NCBI RefSeq assembly: GCF_000970045.1 | Contig: NZ_CP009505.1 | Coordinates: 930,001-994,000, forward strand | Direction: 5' to 3' | Source of the DNA: Methanosarcina sp. MTP4 | Lineage (GTDB): Archaea; Halobacteriota; Methanosarcinia; Methanosarcinales; Methanosarcinaceae | DNA: 64,000 nucleotides | Shown: one piece after another, positions 34,673 to 45,264 of the stretch | Numbering within the stretch: position 1 is the stretch's first letter | Layout of the letters: each line of letters begins with the position of its first letter | Translations under genes and position numbers: made by a program | Notes under the pieces: model-generated | What the model was told of the DNA's origin: nothing | The model's database searches: none | What the model saw: the letters and a program-made list of their open reading frames with translations, nothing else

Positions 34673-35587
34673 TCACATCCACACACTGGAATAGTTATTC
34701 ATAATCTCTTTCACTGCGCTATGGGTATGTTCGTGCATATGCAGGTGGATGTGGCCGTCCCTTTCGATTGAATTAATAACTTCGTTTACGGCTTCGTCAA
34801 TGCATAAAGGCAAGTTGTCGCAGTTGTAGCCGAAGCAGCTCAGGACCTTGAATAGCTTGAAAACGTCCGGGGCGTCCAGTTTGTTTTCCCTGAGGAGGTT
34901 GAAGTCCGAGAAGATTTCGCGTGGGCTTCCCTCGGCGACGATTTCCCTGTTCAGGACGTAGACACGGTCTGCGATTTCGGCAAGCACGTTTACATCGTGC
35001 ATTGCGATGATGACGGTGATTCCCTCTTTTTCATTCAGTTCGTTTATGACCCTGATAAGGTCGGAACGGCTCTTAGGGTCCAGGTTTGCAGTGGGCTCGT
35101 CAAGGACAATTACCCTGGGATGCATTGCGATTACCGCGGCCAGGGCGACTTTCTTTTTCTGCCCGCAGCTGAGGTGGTGAGGGACGCGGTTTTCCAGGCC
35201 TTCGAGCCCGACACATTCGATTGCGTATTTCACCCTCTTTTCAACTTCCTCGCGTGAAAGGCCCATGTTGGTAGGGCCAAAGGCAATGTCGTCGAAGACG
35301 GTTGGCATGAAGAGCTGGTCGTCAGGATCCGCGAAGACTATCCCCACTTCCCGGATCCGCTCCGTAATTGCCATGTCCCCTATGCTCTTCCCGAATATTT
35401 TCACGTTCTTTTCAGGGCTTTTGATTGTCCCGTTCAGGTGCAGGAAAAAAGTTGTCTTTCCGGCCCCGTTAGGGCCTATGACTGCAACCTTTTCCCCTTC
35501 GAAGACTTCGAGATTCACGTTTTCCAGGGCTTTTTTATTCCTGGGATAGGCATAGTTCAGGTTTTCAACGGATACTGCGACATTCAT
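34673..35587 (-). CDS. cbiO: ECF transporter ATP-binding protein CbiO/NikO with His-rich tail
   Basis: This 304-residue ABC ATPase has Walker A VIGPNGAGKTTFFLHL near residue 36, Q-loop ADPDDQLFMP, signature HLSCGQKKKVALA near 142, Walker B RVIVLDEPTANLD and the His switch AMHDVNV. Residues about 275-290 form a striking alternating His stretch (HIHLHMHEHTHSAV), likely metal binding. It overlaps cbiQ by 4 bp (ATGA), so the two are translationally coupled. It powers uptake of nickel or cobalt. The His tail and nearby nickel enzymes favour nickel. Confidence 0.92.
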   Translation of the reverse strand: MNVAVSVENLNYAYPRNKKALENVNLEVFEGEKVAVIGPNGAGKTTFFLHLNGTIKSPEKNVKIFGKSIGDMAITERIREVGIVFADPDDQLFMPTVFDDIAFGPTNMGLSREEVEKRVKYAIECVGLEGLENRVPHHLSCGQKKKVALAAVIAMHPRVIVLDEPTANLDPKSRSDLIRVINELNEKEGITVIIAMHDVNVLAEIADRVYVLNREIVAEGSPREIFSDFNLLRENKLDAPDVFKLFKVLSCFGYNCDNLPLCIDEAVNEVINSIERDGHIHLHMHEHTHSAVKEIMNNYSSVWM

Positions 35588-36348
35588 AGGATCACCGGGA
35601 AGATGTGGAAGAAGACAGCTGCGCTGAGCAGGACTCCGCTAAGGACGTAATCCGAACCCTTCATCTCAAATTTTGTAAGAATTATGGGGTTGCCGGTATA
35701 GCCCCTGGCTACCATGGAGCTGTAGACCCGGTCTCCCCGTTCGTAACTTTTAACAAGGAGCATACCCACGGCGTTTCCCAGGATTGACAGGGCATGCCTG
35801 CTATTGCCTTTTATCTGGAAACCCTTGGACTCCATAGCGTTTTTCATGTTCCCGAACTCATCTATAAACACGAAGATGTAGCGGTAGGTAAACATGAGCA
35901 TTTGTACGAGTATGCCCGGGACCCTCAGCATATAGAGCGCTTTTAAAATGGCTTCAAAACGCGAAGTCCCGAGCATCAGGAGTGCCAGGAAAAGGGCTGC
36001 CGTAGCCCGAAGAACAATCAGGGTGCCGAGATGCACACCTTCATAGCTCACACGAAGCCCGAAAATGCTGAACAGTTCCTTTCCACCCACGGTAAAAGCC
36101 ATAATTACCAGAATTGAGACTATAAAACCAAGAGGCACTTTGATACGGCTGAACACAAAGCCAAGAGGCAGGCGGGAAACTATGAGCAAAAGTAAAGAAA
36201 AAGCGACCGCAATGGTAGCTGCATTTATGTTTTCCAGGAAAGCAAAAGAGAAAATGAGGACAGAAAATGTTATGATTTTAGCCCTGGGGTCAAAGCTATG
36301 AATAGGGGAATTAAGGGATGCGTAGGCATCAATCCTGGGATAGTCCAT
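35584..36348 (-). CDS. cbiQ: ECF transporter transmembrane protein CbiQ/NikQ
   Basis: The 254 residues form a hydrophobic T-component with about five to six helices. The family start is IDAYASLNSPIHSFDPRAKI, and the coupling helices with A-R-G-type motifs include RVYSSMVARGYTGNP near residue 210. GAGGAGA precedes ATG 36348. It couples the ATPase to the substrate-binding NikM. Unusually, 540 bp with an AT-rich repeat array separates it from nikL. Confidence 0.9.
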   Translation of the reverse strand: MDYPRIDAYASLNSPIHSFDPRAKIITFSVLIFSFAFLENINAATIAVAFSLLLLIVSRLPLGFVFSRIKVPLGFIVSILVIMAFTVGGKELFSIFGLRVSYEGVHLGTLIVLRATAALFLALLMLGTSRFEAILKALYMLRVPGILVQMLMFTYRYIFVFIDEFGNMKNAMESKGFQIKGNSRHALSILGNAVGMLLVKSYERGDRVYSSMVARGYTGNPIILTKFEMKGSDYVLSGVLLSAAVFFHIFPVIL

Positions 36349-36887: not shown

Positions 36888-37385
36888 TTAACTCTTTTCA
36901 TACTGTTTTTTCATCTTCCTGGCACTTATCATCATGCCGACCCCGGCAAGCCCTATAAGGTAGCCGAAACCTGCAACCACTCTTGCAGGGAGGGGGAGTT
37001 CGTCTTCCTGGGAACTTGAAGCCTGGTTTTCGAGGTCAATGGTACCTCTTGCCCTGTGCCCGTCCTGTTCTACGACAATGCTGTACATTGTTTCTCCCCT
37101 ATCGGTCAGGAAGGTGCAAAAACCATCTTCGTCCGTGCTGCCCTCAAAATAGGGCTCTTTGATATCCTTGCCGTCTTCATCCGTACCCGTTATCAGGTAT
37201 ACGGAAACATCGGCATTTGCCATGGGGGATCCGCCTTCGTACCAGGCTTTGACCTGCATTTCATCTCCTGCATCTGCACCCACGAAGTATCCTACAAAAG
37301 CCCTGTGGGCAGAAGCAAGAGGTATGAACACGGAGGACATGATCAGTAACAGTGCAAGAACTCTCAGACATCGGTTAATATTCAT
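36888..37385 (-). CDS. NikL-like accessory component of the nickel/cobalt transporter
   Basis: The 165 residues have a signal peptide (LRVLALLLIMSSVFIPLASA), with the mature chain starting HRAFVGYFVG. An extracytoplasmic beta domain follows (MQVKAWYEGGSPMANADVSV to YSIVVEQDGHRARG). A C-terminal membrane helix (VVAGFGYLIGLAGVGMMIS) and basic tail close it. This layout and its place directly after nikM (3-bp gap) match NikL, the extra subunit in NikMLQO-type systems, which replaces the two-helix CbiN/NikN. The His at the mature N-terminus may help present metal; that is inference. GGGAG precedes the ATG inside the end of nikM. Confidence 0.8.
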   Translation of the reverse strand: MNINRCLRVLALLLIMSSVFIPLASAHRAFVGYFVGADAGDEMQVKAWYEGGSPMANADVSVYLITGTDEDGKDIKEPYFEGSTDEDGFCTFLTDRGETMYSIVVEQDGHRARGTIDLENQASSSQEDELPLPARVVAGFGYLIGLAGVGMMISARKMKKQYEKS

Positions 37386-37388
37386 TTT

Positions 37389-38057
37389 TCAGACATCTCC
37401 CGCAGATTTACTTACATTTAATTCTTCTTCTTTATCCATATCTTCAGTAGCTATTGGCAGCATTTCCGGCTTTACTTTCAAAAGGTAGGCAACGACAGAG
37501 CCGGTAACAGCCGCTTCAATAAGCATTATCGGGATGTGGGCCAGGGCTGCAACCTTTGCGACTTCCATAAACTGTTCGCCCGTAGTAACAAGGGAGATCG
37601 AAAGGAGCACGACCGTAATGACAATTGCAAACCCTCCGCAAAAAGCTCCGAGAAGCGGGGCAGAAATTCCTTTGTCGTGACCTTTTTTGAAAATAAGGTA
37701 ACAGATGATTGCCGGAAGCCCTACGTTTAGGGAATTGATCCCGATAGTCGTAACTCCCCCATGCTGTAGCAGCAGGGCCTGAAGGGTTAACCCTATGACC
37801 ATTGCAAGGTAGGCAAGTGGCCCGAGGATCACTCCCAGCAGCCCGTTAAAAATAAGGTGTACACATGTAGGCCCTATGGTGATATGGATCAGGGACGCAA
37901 CAAAAAAAGCCCCTGCCATAACGGAAAACTTGGGAATCTCCTCCGCGATATCAAAATATTTTTTGCTCCACCAGAGACTGAATATAACAAAAACAATAGT
38001 TACTGCCCAGCCGGCTGTTATCACCGGAACAGATAATACTCCATCTGAAATGTGCAC
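37389..38057 (-). CDS. cbiM: Nickel/cobalt ECF transporter substrate-binding protein CbiM/NikM
   Basis: GTG 38057 follows AAGGTGA and gives the N-terminus MHISDGVLS. In the CbiM/NikM family His2 and the N-terminal amine form the metal site inside the membrane, so this start is well supported. The 222 residues form about seven helices, with conserved IHITIGPTCVHLIFNGLLG near residue 57 and LQHGGVTTIGINSLNVGLPA near 98. It is the metal-specific S-component. First gene of the transporter locus. Confidence 0.93.
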   Translation of the reverse strand: MHISDGVLSVPVITAGWAVTIVFVIFSLWWSKKYFDIAEEIPKFSVMAGAFFVASLIHITIGPTCVHLIFNGLLGVILGPLAYLAMVIGLTLQALLLQHGGVTTIGINSLNVGLPAIICYLIFKKGHDKGISAPLLGAFCGGFAIVITVVLLSISLVTTGEQFMEVAKVAALAHIPIMLIEAAVTGSVVAYLLKVKPEMLPIATEDMDKEEELNVSKSAGDV

Positions 38058-38432: not shown

Positions 38433-39617
38433 TTACTTTCTTCTTGCGAAGAATACTGTGCAAAGCATTCCTGCTACAGCAAGGACAAGGCCAAAGCCAG
38501 GTGCACTGTTTCCGGACTCTTCTTCGGCAGCAGCTTCGGCTTCAGGTTCTGGAGCTGCCTTTGCTTCGGCTTCAGAAGTCGGGTTTTCAATAGCTTCCTG
38601 GAGTTCGCCGACGTTTTCCTTAATGTCAGCTACAATGTATTCAGTTTCGTGATAGTAATCATGGGTGTTGTCAGCATATTCGGCGTGGGTCTCGGGAACC
38701 ATTCCGGTGAGTTCATGGAGCTTGTCGTGCTTGGACTCGATTATACCTGCACACTCTTCAAGGTGCTCGTTCATTTCCCCGATTTCCTCGTCAATGGCTG
38801 CCTTGTTGGCTTCAACGTCTCCTGCGAGACCCCTTATGTTTTCCACATGCTCAAGGACCTCTTTAGCACAGTGCTCGATGTCGTGGGAAGAAAGGTGGAT
38901 TTCCTCACCAACTGCACGAATGTCTTCCGAGAGAGCTTCGTCATCTGCAATGTACTCGGTCTCGTCGTGGATTTTGCCTGCATAATCAAGCAGTTCGTTT
39001 GCGTTTTCCTCTACTTCATCCAGGGCCGCTGCAACGTTCCCGCTTACAGGTGCTGCGGATGCTGCGGATGCCGTTCCGATTCCAAGGGATTCTTCGAGTT
39101 CTCCGACATGGGAGTCGATGCCCCTGAGGACTGCCTCGGCTTCATGATAATAGTCATGGGTGTTGTCGGCATATTCGGCGTGGGTTTCTGGAACCTCGCT
39201 TCCGAGAGCATGGACAATGTCGCCCTTGGATTCCATGATTCCTTCGCATTCCTCAATATGTTCTTTCATGTCCGCAATTTCAGCCTCGATTGCATCCATG
39301 TTCGCTTCGGGGTCCGCAACCAGCCCGTTAAGGGTTTCCACGCTTCTGAGGAGTTCCTGGGCACAGTGGTCAATATCGTGAGAAGAAAGGTGGACTTCTT
39401 CTCCCTTTGCCCTTAAAGCCTCATCGAGACTTTCATCATCAGCAATCATTTCAGTCTCATCATGGATGTTTCCGGCTACGGTTGAAAGCTCCTCTGCGTG
39501 CTCACCGATTTCCGCCACGATAGCAGCAGGGGACTCTTCCTGCGCAGAAACAGGGAAACTGCAGGCAAGCATTATCATCAGTATGGCAAGTAAAATTGAT
39601 TTCATTCCTAGATTCAT
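38433..39617 (-). CDS. PGF-CTERM surface protein with two His/Cys-rich repeats
   Basis: I start at ATG 39617 (MNLGMKSILL), with GGTTGG upstream; the GTG at 39644 adds nine residues before the signal peptide. Signal peptide: LLAILMIMLACSFPVSA. The mature part is two tandem helical repeats of about 150 residues. Each has HDETExIADDE, then VHLSSHDIDHCAQELL (or IHLSSHDIEHCAKEVL), HIEEC/HLEEC, and PETHAEYADNTHDYYHE. His, Asp, Glu and Cys recur at matching places, suggesting a helical-bundle metal site. A Glu/Ala linker leads to the anchor SAPGFGLVLAVAGM with RRK. It should be S-layer anchored. It lies upstream of the nickel transporter on the same strand. The metal is unknown. Confidence 0.85.
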   Translation of the reverse strand: MNLGMKSILLAILMIMLACSFPVSAQEESPAAIVAEIGEHAEELSTVAGNIHDETEMIADDESLDEALRAKGEEVHLSSHDIDHCAQELLRSVETLNGLVADPEANMDAIEAEIADMKEHIEECEGIMESKGDIVHALGSEVPETHAEYADNTHDYYHEAEAVLRGIDSHVGELEESLGIGTASAASAAPVSGNVAAALDEVEENANELLDYAGKIHDETEYIADDEALSEDIRAVGEEIHLSSHDIEHCAKEVLEHVENIRGLAGDVEANKAAIDEEIGEMNEHLEECAGIIESKHDKLHELTGMVPETHAEYADNTHDYYHETEYIVADIKENVGELQEAIENPTSEAEAKAAPEPEAEAAAEEESGNSAPGFGLVLAVAGMLCTVFFARRK

Positions 39618-40046
39618 TTTTCCAACCTTCTTTATATTAAACACTATATCAAAATAAATGTCTTAGATATCAATTTTAATCAGTAATTTCAAGTAACGAT
39701 TTTATAAATAATTATATGGATTTTCAAGTATGAGGGACACACTACCCTGATAAATTGAACAATTATACATATTAAACGATTTATCCAGCTAACAACTGTT
39801 AGCCGGATGGGTAAAGACATTTCTATAAATCGACGACATATGAACAGTGTGAACAAGTAAAATTGATTATTTTATAGAAAATTTCCCGTGAAAAACCCTG
39901 GAAATCATCCTCAGTGAGGAAATAAAATAAAACTGTTTTGGACATATTAAGACAATATATTTAAATACCAAAAACCCCGATATGAACTATGCTAACAAGT
40001 GTCATGTTAACGAGTAACAGATTAATATTATCAGAAAGGTGTAGAG
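39618..40046. other. Divergent intergenic region
   Basis: The region between the surface-protein gene and the small symporter-accessory gene is AT-rich, with a CTAACAACTGTTAG palindrome near 39788-39801. AAGGTG at 40036-40041 is the ribosome site of the accessory gene. No other gene is seen. Confidence 0.35.
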
Positions 40047-40354: not shown

Positions 40355-42013
40355 ATGGCAGTCGATACTTCAACTCTCATCATTCTTGTTCTTGTGTACC
40401 TTGCATCCATTTTCTACCTCGCCCGGCTGGGCTACAGGCAGAGTTCCCAGACCGACGGGTATATGCTTGCAGGCAGGAAGGTGCACCCGGCCATCATGGC
40501 CCTATCCTACGGGGCGGCCTTTATCAGCACCTCGGCGATCATTGGGTTCGGAGGAGTAGCCGCATCCCTGGGAATGGGACTCCTGTGGCTGGTCTTCATG
40601 AACATCTTTTTCGGGATTTTCATAGCTTTTGTGGTCTTCGGACCGAAAACCCGGCGCATGGGACTTAACCTGGGGGCAGTTACATTCCCAGAATTCCTGG
40701 GAAGACGTTTCCAGTCCCGCTTCATCCAGGGCTTTTCCGGGCTTTTGATAGGGATTTTCATGCCCCTGTACGCGGGAAGCGTACTTATCGGGGCTGCCCG
40801 CTTCATTGAAACTACCCTGGGGATCAACTACAATCTCGCCCTTCTGATCTTCACGATTATCATTGCTTCCTACGTTATCAAAGGTGGGCTGCTTTCCGTC
40901 ATGTACGTGGATGCCTTCCAGGGCACCCTCATGTTTATCGGAATGGCCTTTTTGCTTATCTTTACCTACGTAAAACTGGGAGGCGTCGTGGGAGCCCACC
41001 AGACCCTAACCGATATGGCACCCTTGGTTCCCCAGGGTCTTGTTGACATCGGACACCAGGGCTGGACTGCCATGCCTTCCCTCGGGTCCCCACTCTGGTG
41101 GACAATGGTCTCTACTCTCTTTCTGGGAGTCGGCATAGGGGTTCTTGCCCAGCCTCAGCTCGCAGTCAGGTTTATGACGGTAAAAGATGACCGTTCCCTG
41201 AAAAGGGCAGTCCTCGTGGGCGGACCTTTCATCCTTATGATGGCAGGTGTGGCTTACGTAGTCGGTGCCCTTTCCAACGTGTACTTCTACCGGACCACAG
41301 GCAAGATAGCCCTTGAAGTTGCAGGAGGCAATACGGACCTGATCATGCCTGAGTACCTTAACAGCGCCATGCCCGAACTCTTCGTGATGTTCTTCATGTT
41401 AAGCCTGCTCTCGGCTGCCATGTCCACCTCGGGAGCCCAGTTCCATGCTATGGGCACAGCCATAGGGCACGACTTCTACCAGGAGGGAATCAAGAAAGGA
41501 AAATCCAAAGGCACAACCATCCATGCCACACGCTTTGGGATAGTCTTTTCCATCTTACTCTCGGTCCTCCTGGCCTACATTCTCCCGGGAAGCATAATCG
41601 CCCGGGCAACAGCAATGTTCATGGGCCTGTGTACCTCTGCCTTCCTACCAATTTACATGGGGGCACTCTTCTGGAAGCGCATAACAAGGGAAGGAGCCGT
41701 GGCAAGCCTGGTTGTCGGGTCCTTGGGCAGCCTCTTCTGGCTGACCTTCGTCCACGCAAAAGAAGCAATTCCCCTCGGGATCTGCCAGGCAATCTTCGGG
41801 AAAGCGACCCTGCTTTCAGGCACCTGGCCCCTTGTGGACCCGATCCTAATCGCAACTCCACTCGCATTCCTTGTGGCAATCGCGGTAAGCCTGGCAACAA
41901 AACCGATGCCGGAAAAATTCCTGAATAAGTGCTACAGCCTCAGGCCCCAGGATGAGGATGAAGACGACTTTGAGTACCCAGTACACACAAATACCGATAC
42001 GACAAGCGTTTAA
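40355..42013 (+). CDS. Sodium:solute symporter (SSS family)
   Basis: The 552 residues form about 13 membrane helices. Family motifs include YMLAGRKVHPAIMALSYGAAFIS near the start, the helix with GLLSVMYVDAFQGTLM near residue 178, and LLSAAMSTSGAQFHAMG near 350. AAGGAG precedes ATG 40355. The substrate cannot be read from sequence; SSS members move sugars, amino acids, organic acids, pantothenate and others with sodium. The acidic C-tail (DEDEDDFEYP) is cytosolic. The gene follows its accessory protein by 149 bp. Confidence 0.92.
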   Translation: MAVDTSTLIILVLVYLASIFYLARLGYRQSSQTDGYMLAGRKVHPAIMALSYGAAFISTSAIIGFGGVAASLGMGLLWLVFMNIFFGIFIAFVVFGPKTRRMGLNLGAVTFPEFLGRRFQSRFIQGFSGLLIGIFMPLYAGSVLIGAARFIETTLGINYNLALLIFTIIIASYVIKGGLLSVMYVDAFQGTLMFIGMAFLLIFTYVKLGGVVGAHQTLTDMAPLVPQGLVDIGHQGWTAMPSLGSPLWWTMVSTLFLGVGIGVLAQPQLAVRFMTVKDDRSLKRAVLVGGPFILMMAGVAYVVGALSNVYFYRTTGKIALEVAGGNTDLIMPEYLNSAMPELFVMFFMLSLLSAAMSTSGAQFHAMGTAIGHDFYQEGIKKGKSKGTTIHATRFGIVFSILLSVLLAYILPGSIIARATAMFMGLCTSAFLPIYMGALFWKRITREGAVASLVVGSLGSLFWLTFVHAKEAIPLGICQAIFGKATLLSGTWPLVDPILIATPLAFLVAIAVSLATKPMPEKFLNKCYSLRPQDEDEDDFEYPVHTNTDTTSV

Positions 42014-42535: not shown

Positions 42536-43801
42536 TTATTCCTCTTTTCTCACCGGGAGGGTCTGTCCTCCATGGGGCATGAGGTGGATTTTTGCGTCAG
42601 GGTTTTTGGAAAGGATTTCTTCAAGGGCTTCCAAGACGCTTCCCATCGGGGTGAAGAAGGCATCCCTGGTATCTTCCTCCCGCAGCTTTGAGACCAGGTA
42701 AAGTTTGAACTGTTTGGCGGCTTTTGCCACGATGGCGCTCTTGTGTCCACCGAACTCGAAACAGCGCTTGAAACGCTCGACTGCCTCATCCGGGGTCTTG
42801 CATTCCCTGTTCCAGCACTCGTAGATCTGGTTCCCGATCCCTTCGGAACATTCTGCCACAAGGATGATAGAGCCGCCATCTTTTACTGCCTGGGTGGCGT
42901 TGTCAAGGGACTTGTTGGCCTGGTAGAGGTTGATGTCCTTGGGGTAGCCTCCGCAGGAGACAATAACGGCGTCTGCGGGTTCGACCGGGACCTTGTACAT
43001 GGCGTCCACGGCTTCGACTCCTTTGCGGTGGGCTTCGATAAAGTCCCCGGCAACGGCAGCCACGATCCCTTTCTTGCTGTCCAGCACAACATTCAGGATG
43101 AAGTCGAGTCCGGCAATTTTTACGGCTTCTTCCATGTCCTGCCTGACAGGGCTGTCAATTCTTCCGGAAACCGCCTTTTCTTCGATCATCAGTTTGTGGT
43201 TTGTAAGCACCGAGGCTTCAGAACTCACACCGGGGAGAACGGATTTGGCCCCACCGCTGTACCCCGCATAATAATGGAACTCAATTCCCCCGGTCCCGAC
43301 GACCACATCGGAATCAAGCACTTCTTCAAAGACCTCTACAGGCGTCCTGCGGCTCGTAACCCCTACACGCCTGCACCTGCCCGTATCGTGCTGGATGCAG
43401 CGGATTTTTCCGTAAATTTCATCCCCTACAAGTTTTCGGGATTCCTCTTCGGTCTGCCGCCTGTGCAGGCCAAGGGCGAATACGATTGTGATGTTTTCGG
43501 CTTTTGCTCCTCCGAGATAAAGCTCTTCGAGGAGGGGGGGCAGCAGCTTTGCAGTGGGGGTCGGGCGGGTAACGTCGCTTACAATAACCGCAACCTTTGA
43601 TTCCGGGTTTACAATCTCGGAAAGGCGCCTGCTCTTTATGGGGTTTTCAAGCGCTTTTTTGATTAAAAAAGCTCCCTCTTTCCGTTTTTCAGGCTCCGAG
43701 GGCATTATGACGCTGGAGAGGTTCTTTTCCGGAACCTCCAGCTCAAGTTTCTCGCTGCCGAAAGCGAGTTTAATCTTTTTTACATTTGTCTTCATGTTCA
43801 T
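42536..43801 (-). CDS. LarA-type nickel-dependent racemase family protein
   Basis: I start at ATG 43801; the frame is longer, but the sequence before it is unlike the paralogue, whose start lies in the same context (GACATGAAC). The 421 residues have the LarA landmarks: ALGLHRRQTEEE near residue 112, EFHYYAGYSGGAKSVLPG near 180 (His and the Lys that tethers the pincer cofactor), and LTNHKLM. LarA of lactobacilli racemises lactate with a nickel pincer nucleotide; related proteins act on other 2-hydroxyacids, so the substrate is open. The cofactor makers LarB, LarC and LarE are not in the window. A second copy lies directly upstream. Confidence 0.88.
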   Translation of the reverse strand: MNMKTNVKKIKLAFGSEKLELEVPEKNLSSVIMPSEPEKRKEGAFLIKKALENPIKSRRLSEIVNPESKVAVIVSDVTRPTPTAKLLPPLLEELYLGGAKAENITIVFALGLHRRQTEEESRKLVGDEIYGKIRCIQHDTGRCRRVGVTSRRTPVEVFEEVLDSDVVVGTGGIEFHYYAGYSGGAKSVLPGVSSEASVLTNHKLMIEEKAVSGRIDSPVRQDMEEAVKIAGLDFILNVVLDSKKGIVAAVAGDFIEAHRKGVEAVDAMYKVPVEPADAVIVSCGGYPKDINLYQANKSLDNATQAVKDGGSIILVAECSEGIGNQIYECWNRECKTPDEAVERFKRCFEFGGHKSAIVAKAAKQFKLYLVSKLREEDTRDAFFTPMGSVLEALEEILSKNPDAKIHLMPHGGQTLPVRKEE

Positions 43802-43989
43802 GTCCGGAAGGAATATCCTGATAATATAAAATGATATAGGTAAACATACGCCGGAGATCAGCAATACCTATGAAATCTTATGCAGTAACCAATAATTTGG
43901 AAAGTTAACAATACTTGTCCGGTTAACAATACTTATACGGTAAACTGATACTCAGAATTCCTTCCGGACTGCAAAATTTCTTTTCTGCT

Positions 43990-45264
43990 TCAGGGTTCCT
44001 TTCTGACCGGAAGCGTCCTCCCCCCGTCGGGCATCACATGAATCCTGGCTTCCGGATTTTCAGCGAGAATTATTTCCAGGGCTTCCTGCACGGTTCCAAC
44101 CGGGGTAAAGAAAGTGTTCCTGCACTCTTCTTCGGAAAGTTTCGAGACCATATAAAGCCTGAACTCTTTTGCCGCCTTTCCGACAATTGCACTCTTATGC
44201 CCTCCGAACTCGAAATTTTCCCTGAACCTCTCAACAGCCTCATCCGGGCTTTTACACTCCCTGCTCCAGCACTCGTAAACCTTATTCCCGAGCCCCTCCG
44301 GGCATTCGGCTGCAAGCACTATTGAGCCTCCCGTTTTTACTGCAGCTACGGCGTTTTCCAGGGCTTTTGTCGCCTGGTAGAGATTGATGTCCTTGGGAAA
44401 GCCGCCGCAGGAGGCAATGACAGCGTCAGCAGGTTCCACCGGCACCTTGTACATGGTATCCACATACTCTGCACCTTTCCTGTGGGCTTTGATGAAGTCC
44501 CCTGAAACCGCAGCTACGATTCTTTTCTTGCTGTCGATTACCGCGTTCAGGATAAAGCCAAGCCCCGCTATTTTTGCAGCTTCCTCAATGTTCTGCCTCG
44601 CCGGGCTGTTAACCCTTCCGGAGAGAGGGTCGCCTTCAAAGAGTTTGCTGTAAAAACTGTGGAACGAAAGCACGGCCCTTTCCGAACTGACCCCTGGCAG
44701 GATGCACTTTCCTCCCCCACCGTAGCCGGCGTAGTAATGGAACTCGACGGTGCCGGTCCCGACAATAAGGTCTGCGTCCAGGACCTCTTCGAAAATTTCT
44801 ACCGGGGTCCCGAAACTGGTTTCTCCTAGATGCCTGCAGCGTTCCCTGTCGTGCTGGATGCAGCGGAAGTTTTCGAAGATTTTATCCCCAATAAGCTTTC
44901 TGCACTCTTCTTCGGTCTGTTTCCGGTGCAGGCCCAGGGCAAAAACGATAGTGATATTATCATCCCTCACCCCTCCGAGCCGGAGCTCTTCAAGGAGAGG
45001 GGGGAGAAGCTTTGCAGAAGGAGTAGGTCTGGTTATATCACTTACGATGATTGCGATCCGGGACTCCGGATTTACAAGCTCAGAGAGACGACAGCTTCCT
45101 ATTGGGTCCAGAAGGGCTTTTTTGACTATGGAACTTTCATCTTCCCTGCTTTTGGGTTCTGAGGGCAGGATGAGTTCAGAGAGGTTCTTTTCAGGAATTT
45201 TGAGTTCAATCACTCCGTTCCCGAAAGGAAGATCTATTTTTCTAATTTTAGTGCTCGGGTTCAT
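43990..45264 (-). CDS. LarA-type nickel-dependent racemase family protein, second copy
   Basis: The 424 residues are colinear with the copy at 42536. They have ALGLHRKQTEEE, EFHYYAGYGGGGKCILPG with the cofactor-binding Lys, and the third His in VLSFHSFY. The loop after this His differs from the other copy (FYSKLFEGDPLSG against KLMIEEKAVSG), which may mean a different substrate. ATG 45264 has no ribosome site, as in the other copy, so leaderless starts are possible. Tandem duplication is clear; 188 bp separate the two. Confidence 0.88.
   Translation of the reverse strand: MNPSTKIRKIDLPFGNGVIELKIPEKNLSELILPSEPKSREDESSIVKKALLDPIGSCRLSELVNPESRIAIIVSDITRPTPSAKLLPPLLEELRLGGVRDDNITIVFALGLHRKQTEEECRKLIGDKIFENFRCIQHDRERCRHLGETSFGTPVEIFEEVLDADLIVGTGTVEFHYYAGYGGGGKCILPGVSSERAVLSFHSFYSKLFEGDPLSGRVNSPARQNIEEAAKIAGLGFILNAVIDSKKRIVAAVSGDFIKAHRKGAEYVDTMYKVPVEPADAVIASCGGFPKDINLYQATKALENAVAAVKTGGSIVLAAECPEGLGNKVYECWSRECKSPDEAVERFRENFEFGGHKSAIVGKAAKEFRLYMVSKLSEEECRNTFFTPVGTVQEALEIILAENPEARIHVMPDGGRTLPVRKEP

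Follow-up and report, generated by a model that had tools for sequence, protein, structure and literature searches.

The window analysed here, a stretch of 64,000 nucleotides from Methanosarcina sp. MTP4, carries on its minus strand a gene for a protein that we call X and, next to it, the genes of a nickel/cobalt importer of the ECF type (Table 1). The reading frame of X extends from an ATG at 39617 to a stop at 38433, with an in-frame GTG at 39644 (minus strand). A palindrome with 12-base arms (ATCCAGCTAACA/TGTTAGCCGGAT) is found upstream of the gene at 39783-39808; being the only copy in the genome, it defines no regulon. The N-terminus of X is a hydrophobic run with SA at its end, as judged by eye and with a simple script, and its C-terminus exceeds the cut-offs for the PGF-CTERM signal in both Pfam (PF18204, 25.5 against 18.8) and NCBIfam (TIGR04126, 29.4 bits against 24.5). 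The 4.2-Mb genome also has a single match to archaeosortase TIGR04125 (262 bits, cut-off 75; G000:C1:4090456-4091292). The archaeosortase tail and the extracellular location proposed in an initial annotation of this DNA, which was based on the letters alone, are thus borne out, the latter by the anchor signal together with a signal peptide recognised by eye, and X is predicted to be exported and held at the cell surface by PGF-CTERM.

Table 1. Features of the X gene and of the adjoining importer genes (positions in the window).
Feature	Positions	Strand	Basis or comment
X coding sequence	38436..39617	minus	ORF and homologues; two-repeat, PGF-CTERM-anchored, His-rich
X signal peptide	39543..39617	minus	hydrophobic run ending ...SFPVSA; cleavage site by eye
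X repeat 1, predicted four-helix bundle	39066..39542	minus	
X repeat 2, predicted four-helix bundle	38571..39047	minus	pLDDT 94.8, pTM 0.87
Conserved His of X repeat 2			226, 250, 254, 310, 320, 328, 332 (403-residue numbering)
X linker, Ala/Glu-rich, low-confidence, from bundles to membrane helix	38496..38573	minus	model residues 324-349, pLDDT under 50
X PGF-CTERM sorting signal	38436..38516	minus	Pfam and NCBIfam
CbiM, S component of Ni/Co ECF importer	37389..38057	minus	Pfam and NCBIfam
NikL-like component	36888..37385	minus	NF058648, below its cut-off
CbiQ, T component	35584..36348	minus	Pfam and NCBIfam
CbiO, ATPase	34673..35587	minus	Pfam and NCBIfam

X contains two repeats (residues 43-185 and 208-350 in the 403-residue numbering) that share 61% identity over an ungapped stretch of 148 residues, and the shared pattern described earlier is indeed present in both, namely HDETE, HLSSHDI-HC and ETHAEYADNTHDYYHE. 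No Pfam or NCBIfam family besides PGF-CTERM scores above its curated cut-off on X, in agreement with the earlier view that the pattern belongs to no named family, and PGF-CTERM is also the commonest NCBIfam model among 15 aligned relatives (9/15). PF07889 (DUF1664) reached E 4e-6 but stayed below its threshold (27.2 versus 34.6). Coiled-coil families in general (DUF1664, SMC, Rad50 and, in the PDB, chemoreceptors) were rejected as well; they remain under curated cut-offs where these exist and are typical of long acidic helices. One relative with three repeats (L047) exceeds, by a few bits each, the Pfam cut-offs of a few unrelated helical families (for example DUF3375, 29.9 versus 28.6, and THP2, 30.6 versus 28), matches that we attribute to low complexity because the helical families hit vary from member to member. 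The titles and abstract openings listed by searches of the open-access literature contained no description of an X-like protein. Judged by sequence, the X repeat forms a separate family, and proteins known to Pfam and NCBIfam only through their anchor now have a family and a confident predicted fold.

How far does this family extend? Full-length relatives of X were found in seven genera of the Methanosarcinaceae (18 of 111 genomes), and a search of the phylum (392 genomes) added five more family-level groups (f7, f9, f11, f18, f26). An alignment that included the tail (A1) matched 275/392 genomes, most of them through the PGF tail only; the profile search with one repeat, a check that the initial annotation had proposed, matched 24/392, including three genomes whose matches look coiled-coil-like (G225, G405 and G421, E 3e-8 to 1e-6). 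Named genomes contributed eight X loci, in Methanosarcinaceae, Methanolobus vulcani, Methanococcoides (two), Methanosalsum, Methanohalobium, Methanosaeta and Methanothrix. X-type proteins carry one, two or three repeats, and in three cases a single protein joins X-type repeats to FmdE-like or propeller-like regions (L077:6951-8501, L096:2466-3620, L079:1097-2905), at loci that lack the importer.

The initial annotation had considered both the histidines and the cysteines to be conserved between the two repeats; in relatives, this holds for the former but not for the latter. Across 24 diverged representatives (less than 62% identity), A324 is kept in all 24, H250 and H254 in 23, I232 and P317 in 21, D235 and A260 in 20, and H310, H328 and H332 in 19, so that histidine occupies five of the 11 columns kept at 75% or more, compared with 11 histidines among all 143 positions (p 0.0004). 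Repeats linked to an importer keep H250 in 41/41, H254 in 40/41 and H310, H328 and H332 in 35/41 each, and the X-type histidines recur in the seven Methanosarcinaceae genera and in five other family-level groups. Paired cysteines, on the other hand, were found in only four of 68 distinct repeats, all from the genome of the window and its nearest relative, and a lone cysteine in none. According to a crude helix placement, the two cysteines of a repeat occupy core positions in helices 2 and 3 at about equal depth. Since they face the core, lie at similar depth and are present or absent together, a disulfide pair is likelier than a metal site, and the idea that these cysteines are metal or redox ligands was rejected on account of their rarity, their core positions and their occurrence as both or none. 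What stands of the proposed metal or redox site is hence its relation to metal, which is supported by the histidines together with the conserved importer operon described below.

AlphaFold2, given one repeat and 17 aligned repeats, predicts a four-helix bundle (mean pLDDT 94.8, pTM 0.87) and, given mature X and six sequences, two bundles followed by a linker of low confidence and a helix at the C-terminus (pLDDT 85.4, pTM 0.50). The two hairpins of the bundle are alike, the HxxxH motifs of helices 2 and 4 being aligned with each other, and their hhalign score of 42 compares with 8.8 on average and at most 14.8 in 100 column-shuffled controls and with 16.6 for the reversed profile. The placement of the histidines is a crude calculation from helix ends and hydrophobic moments only, with no measured distances. 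In regard to the scattering over the predicted surface that had been named as a sign against a metal site, its outcome is mixed: H226, H250, H254, H310, H328 and H332 are placed outside the hydrophobic core, yet they are grouped near one end. These six would make up two sets of three, one on each of two opposite faces, and which ones go together depends on the handedness of the bundle, either H226/H250/H254 and H310/H328/H332 or, with the other handedness, H250/H254/H310 and H226/H328/H332. The structural matches of the bundle are helical bundles of many kinds, with no DUF4198 chain among those listed. Several of the better ones are the sensor domains of PilJ and TorS, which would fit a role of X outside the cell in sensing or regulating the availability of metal, or in guarding the importer against an excess of it; we regard this as the least probable of the readings considered, because such bundle matches are unspecific, none being found at E up to 0.001, and because X has no cytoplasmic signalling domain and its single short C-terminal membrane segment is the sorting signal itself.

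The proximity to a nickel/cobalt importer, which the initial annotation had mentioned, turned out to be understated, since X belongs to the importer cluster in most of its relatives. We compared 40 X loci (the window, L033-L052, L073-L089, L096 and L097; L090-L095 repeat earlier loci). Importer genes lie on the same strand as X in 24 of them, with X directly before CbiM in 23 and between NikL and CbiQ in one (L086); the cluster is of the type CbiM-NikL-CbiQ-CbiO and X is nearly always its first gene. Three loci (L046, L047, L078) have CbiO apart and on the other strand, and in two (L045, L052) no CbiO was found in the vicinity of X. The importer is absent near X in 15/40 loci, counting apart L033, a locus cut off by a contig end, whose genome has, on another contig, an X tail before CbiM (L099). 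In the window, the gap between X and CbiM is 375 bases, compared with 17-148 in the other loci with X upstream of CbiM, so that co-transcription of the two genes is here not assured. Beyond gene order, a closely related CbiM (200 bits or more) is present in 32 Methanosarcinaceae genomes, among them all 18 that contain X, and X is absent from all 79 Methanosarcinaceae genomes that lack such a CbiM (Fisher 2e-12, not corrected for relatedness). PGF-CTERM proteins are often parts of the surface layer, and X repeats are fused to beta-propeller-like and FmdE domains in the three proteins mentioned above, from which X might be thought a structural or adhesion protein of the surface, close to the importer by accident and with histidines that do not serve metal. 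We consider this very unlikely in view of the absence of X from those 79 genomes and of an importer linkage that extends over five family-level groups (f1, f7, f9, f18, f26).

The gene order X-M-L-Q-O parallels the order NikK-M-L-Q-O (PMC2667541; PMC2868824). X is not itself a DUF4198 protein, as PF10670 is not among the best 25 of 31 Pfam families (last E 0.25). In relatives in which CbiM has no X before it, the preceding gene usually encodes a DUF4198 protein, most with a PGF-CTERM anchor; five of six such proteins tested scored well above the DUF4198 cut-off and the sixth (L075:5597-6610) gave no match. This sixth protein, PGF-tailed by eye and without any Pfam or NCBIfam match, may represent a third type of capture subunit. 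A short protein that combines a CxxCH motif with a PGF-like tail is encoded upstream of a further CbiM of the same type (L137:1819-2316). For 53 different CbiM sequences, the gene before CbiM is X in 21, a DUF4198 protein in 21 and neither or unassigned in 11. On a maximum-likelihood tree of CbiM, the X and DUF4198 labels require one change, compared with a mean of 14.4 for shuffled labels, none of 500 shufflings being as low; the branch that parts the two has modest support (67/85, and 76% of bootstrap trees). Both kinds of operon can be found in one genome, as in that of the window, where the NikK-type operon is at L128, and in seven others (G019, G021, G023, G029, G031, G033 and G034). The cluster of Methanolobus vulcani (G063, L042) has, shortly before X, NikL, a fragment of CbiM and, a few genes upstream of X, a DUF4198 gene. 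These are perhaps a NikK operon in decay, and with the DUF4198 gene present, the two proteins are not strictly exclusive at this locus.

Considering all this, we propose, with a probability of around 70%, that X is the extracytoplasmic capture subunit of an ECF-type cobalt/nickel importer. It would stand in for NikK without being homologous to it, as a metal-catching part of the importer that probably evolved separately. X would be exported, lose its signal peptide and be kept by its PGF-CTERM tail at the outer face of the membrane. Each bundle may be seen as two similar hairpins, each with one histidine, a turn and then a (D/E)xxHxxxH helix, and the histidine groups might form open Co2+ or Ni2+ sites of moderate affinity. 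In this way X could enrich scarce metal at the cell surface and deliver it to the S component CbiM, the role that NikK (DUF4198) has in NikK-M-L-Q-O, through what is probably a different fold. The basis for this role consists of the export and anchor signals, the family, the predicted fold, the conserved histidines, the cluster, the NikK slot and the parting of the CbiM tree; metal binding, delivery to CbiM and the identity of the metal are inferred. Against it count the 375-base gap, the 15 importer-less loci, the histidines lying off the core, the modest tree support and the arrangement at L042, and also the mature start of the X of the window (...FPVSAQEES, cleavage by eye), which is without the N-terminal histidine found in many relatives (...SAH) and in DUF4198 proteins. 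Other features would suit a polyanionic surface sponge or store of metal, co-expressed with the importer and not delivering its metal directly to CbiM: X has a net charge of about -75 over 325 residues, 22 histidines and a flexible linker, 15/40 loci have no importer and the number of repeats varies from one to three. Such a sponge is nevertheless unlikely, since X sits in the NikK slot and its presence tracks the CbiM lineage, which suggests a fitted partner, and since specific HxxxH positions are kept rather than charge alone.

If X captures metal for CbiM, which metal would it be? In the window it would be Co2+ or Ni2+. Eight corrinoid genes (CbiT, L, F, G, H, C, D, E) are directly upstream of the X operon at L074 on the same strand, the X operon of L075 follows corrinoid genes in the same order and on the same strand, and cbiD/cbiE are beside the X operons of L046, L047 and L078. 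Corrinoid genes are thus beside 5/24 X operons and 0/12 NikK loci, the latter with shorter flanks, and this vicinity favours cobalt. About 3 kb from X, the window also contains tandem LarA paralogues (42536-43864 and 43990-45264, minus strand), which score 578.6 and 544.5 bits against the NCBIfam model of the nickel-dependent malate racemase LarAH6 (cut-off 500), and a sodium:solute symporter gene (40355-42013) lies between this pair and X; the grouping is similar in L033 and L087. The two LarA genes of the window, and LarA near X in those two loci, favour nickel. For the family as a whole, cobalt appears somewhat likelier than nickel. Split FeoB genes adjoin X repeats in three importer-less loci (L076, L084, L096), which suggests that the bundle is used there in ferrous iron uptake. 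Taken together, it is conceivable, though we hold it at less than even odds, that in methanogenic archaea a second capture subunit for M-L-Q-O importers arose which is unrelated to the first, that the choice between the two sets or follows the metal, with X operons for cobalt and corrinoids and NikK operons for nickel in one cell, and that other lineages also put the bundle to use in iron (FeoB) uptake. Methylotrophic methanogens have an unusually high need for cobalt and nickel, and little is known of how such importers discriminate and gather these metals outside the cell; paired operons with different capture subunits in one genome make the metal question testable.

Among known structures, the best fold matches of X are 5vju (Z 17.7) and 8d9p (Z 16.9), at 7% identity. 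Both are de novo four-helix maquettes or reaction-centre proteins with metal sites, designed, so that no homology to X is implied. Copper storage proteins (Csp) resemble X in using a single four-helix bundle for metal, proposed in the case of X, and match its fold with Z 12.4 (6q6b) and 11.8 (5nqm), values common for helical bundles. Csp holds Cu(I) with many core cysteines, whereas X has two per repeat, and these in just 4/68 distinct repeats. As an accessory component of the same importer class, X can also be compared with NikN and CbiN of NikMNQO and CbiMNQO, which have two membrane spans each (PMC2667541), unlike X, an anchored ectodomain. The Ang-1/Ang-2 metal 'anglerases', described as an extracellular metal-binding part serving a nickel permease (PMC12537917), differ from X, by their description, in that they form one protein with the permease and rely on an N-terminal histidine. 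The closest parallel is NikK, which is exported, as predicted for X, and occupies, like X, the slot before the M gene of the same importer type and which in archaea likewise carries a PGF-CTERM anchor. Histidine-based metal chemistry, proposed for X, is reported for a DUF4198 protein that binds Ni2+ with a Kd of 18 nM through an N-terminal and a second histidine (PMC12537917). X departs from NikK in having no DUF4198 match, a predicted all-helical fold with its conserved histidines in helices and, in the window, no histidine at the mature N-terminus by the cleavage site chosen by eye. That X is NikK therefore fails on the family profile; that X works like NikK is the best reading.
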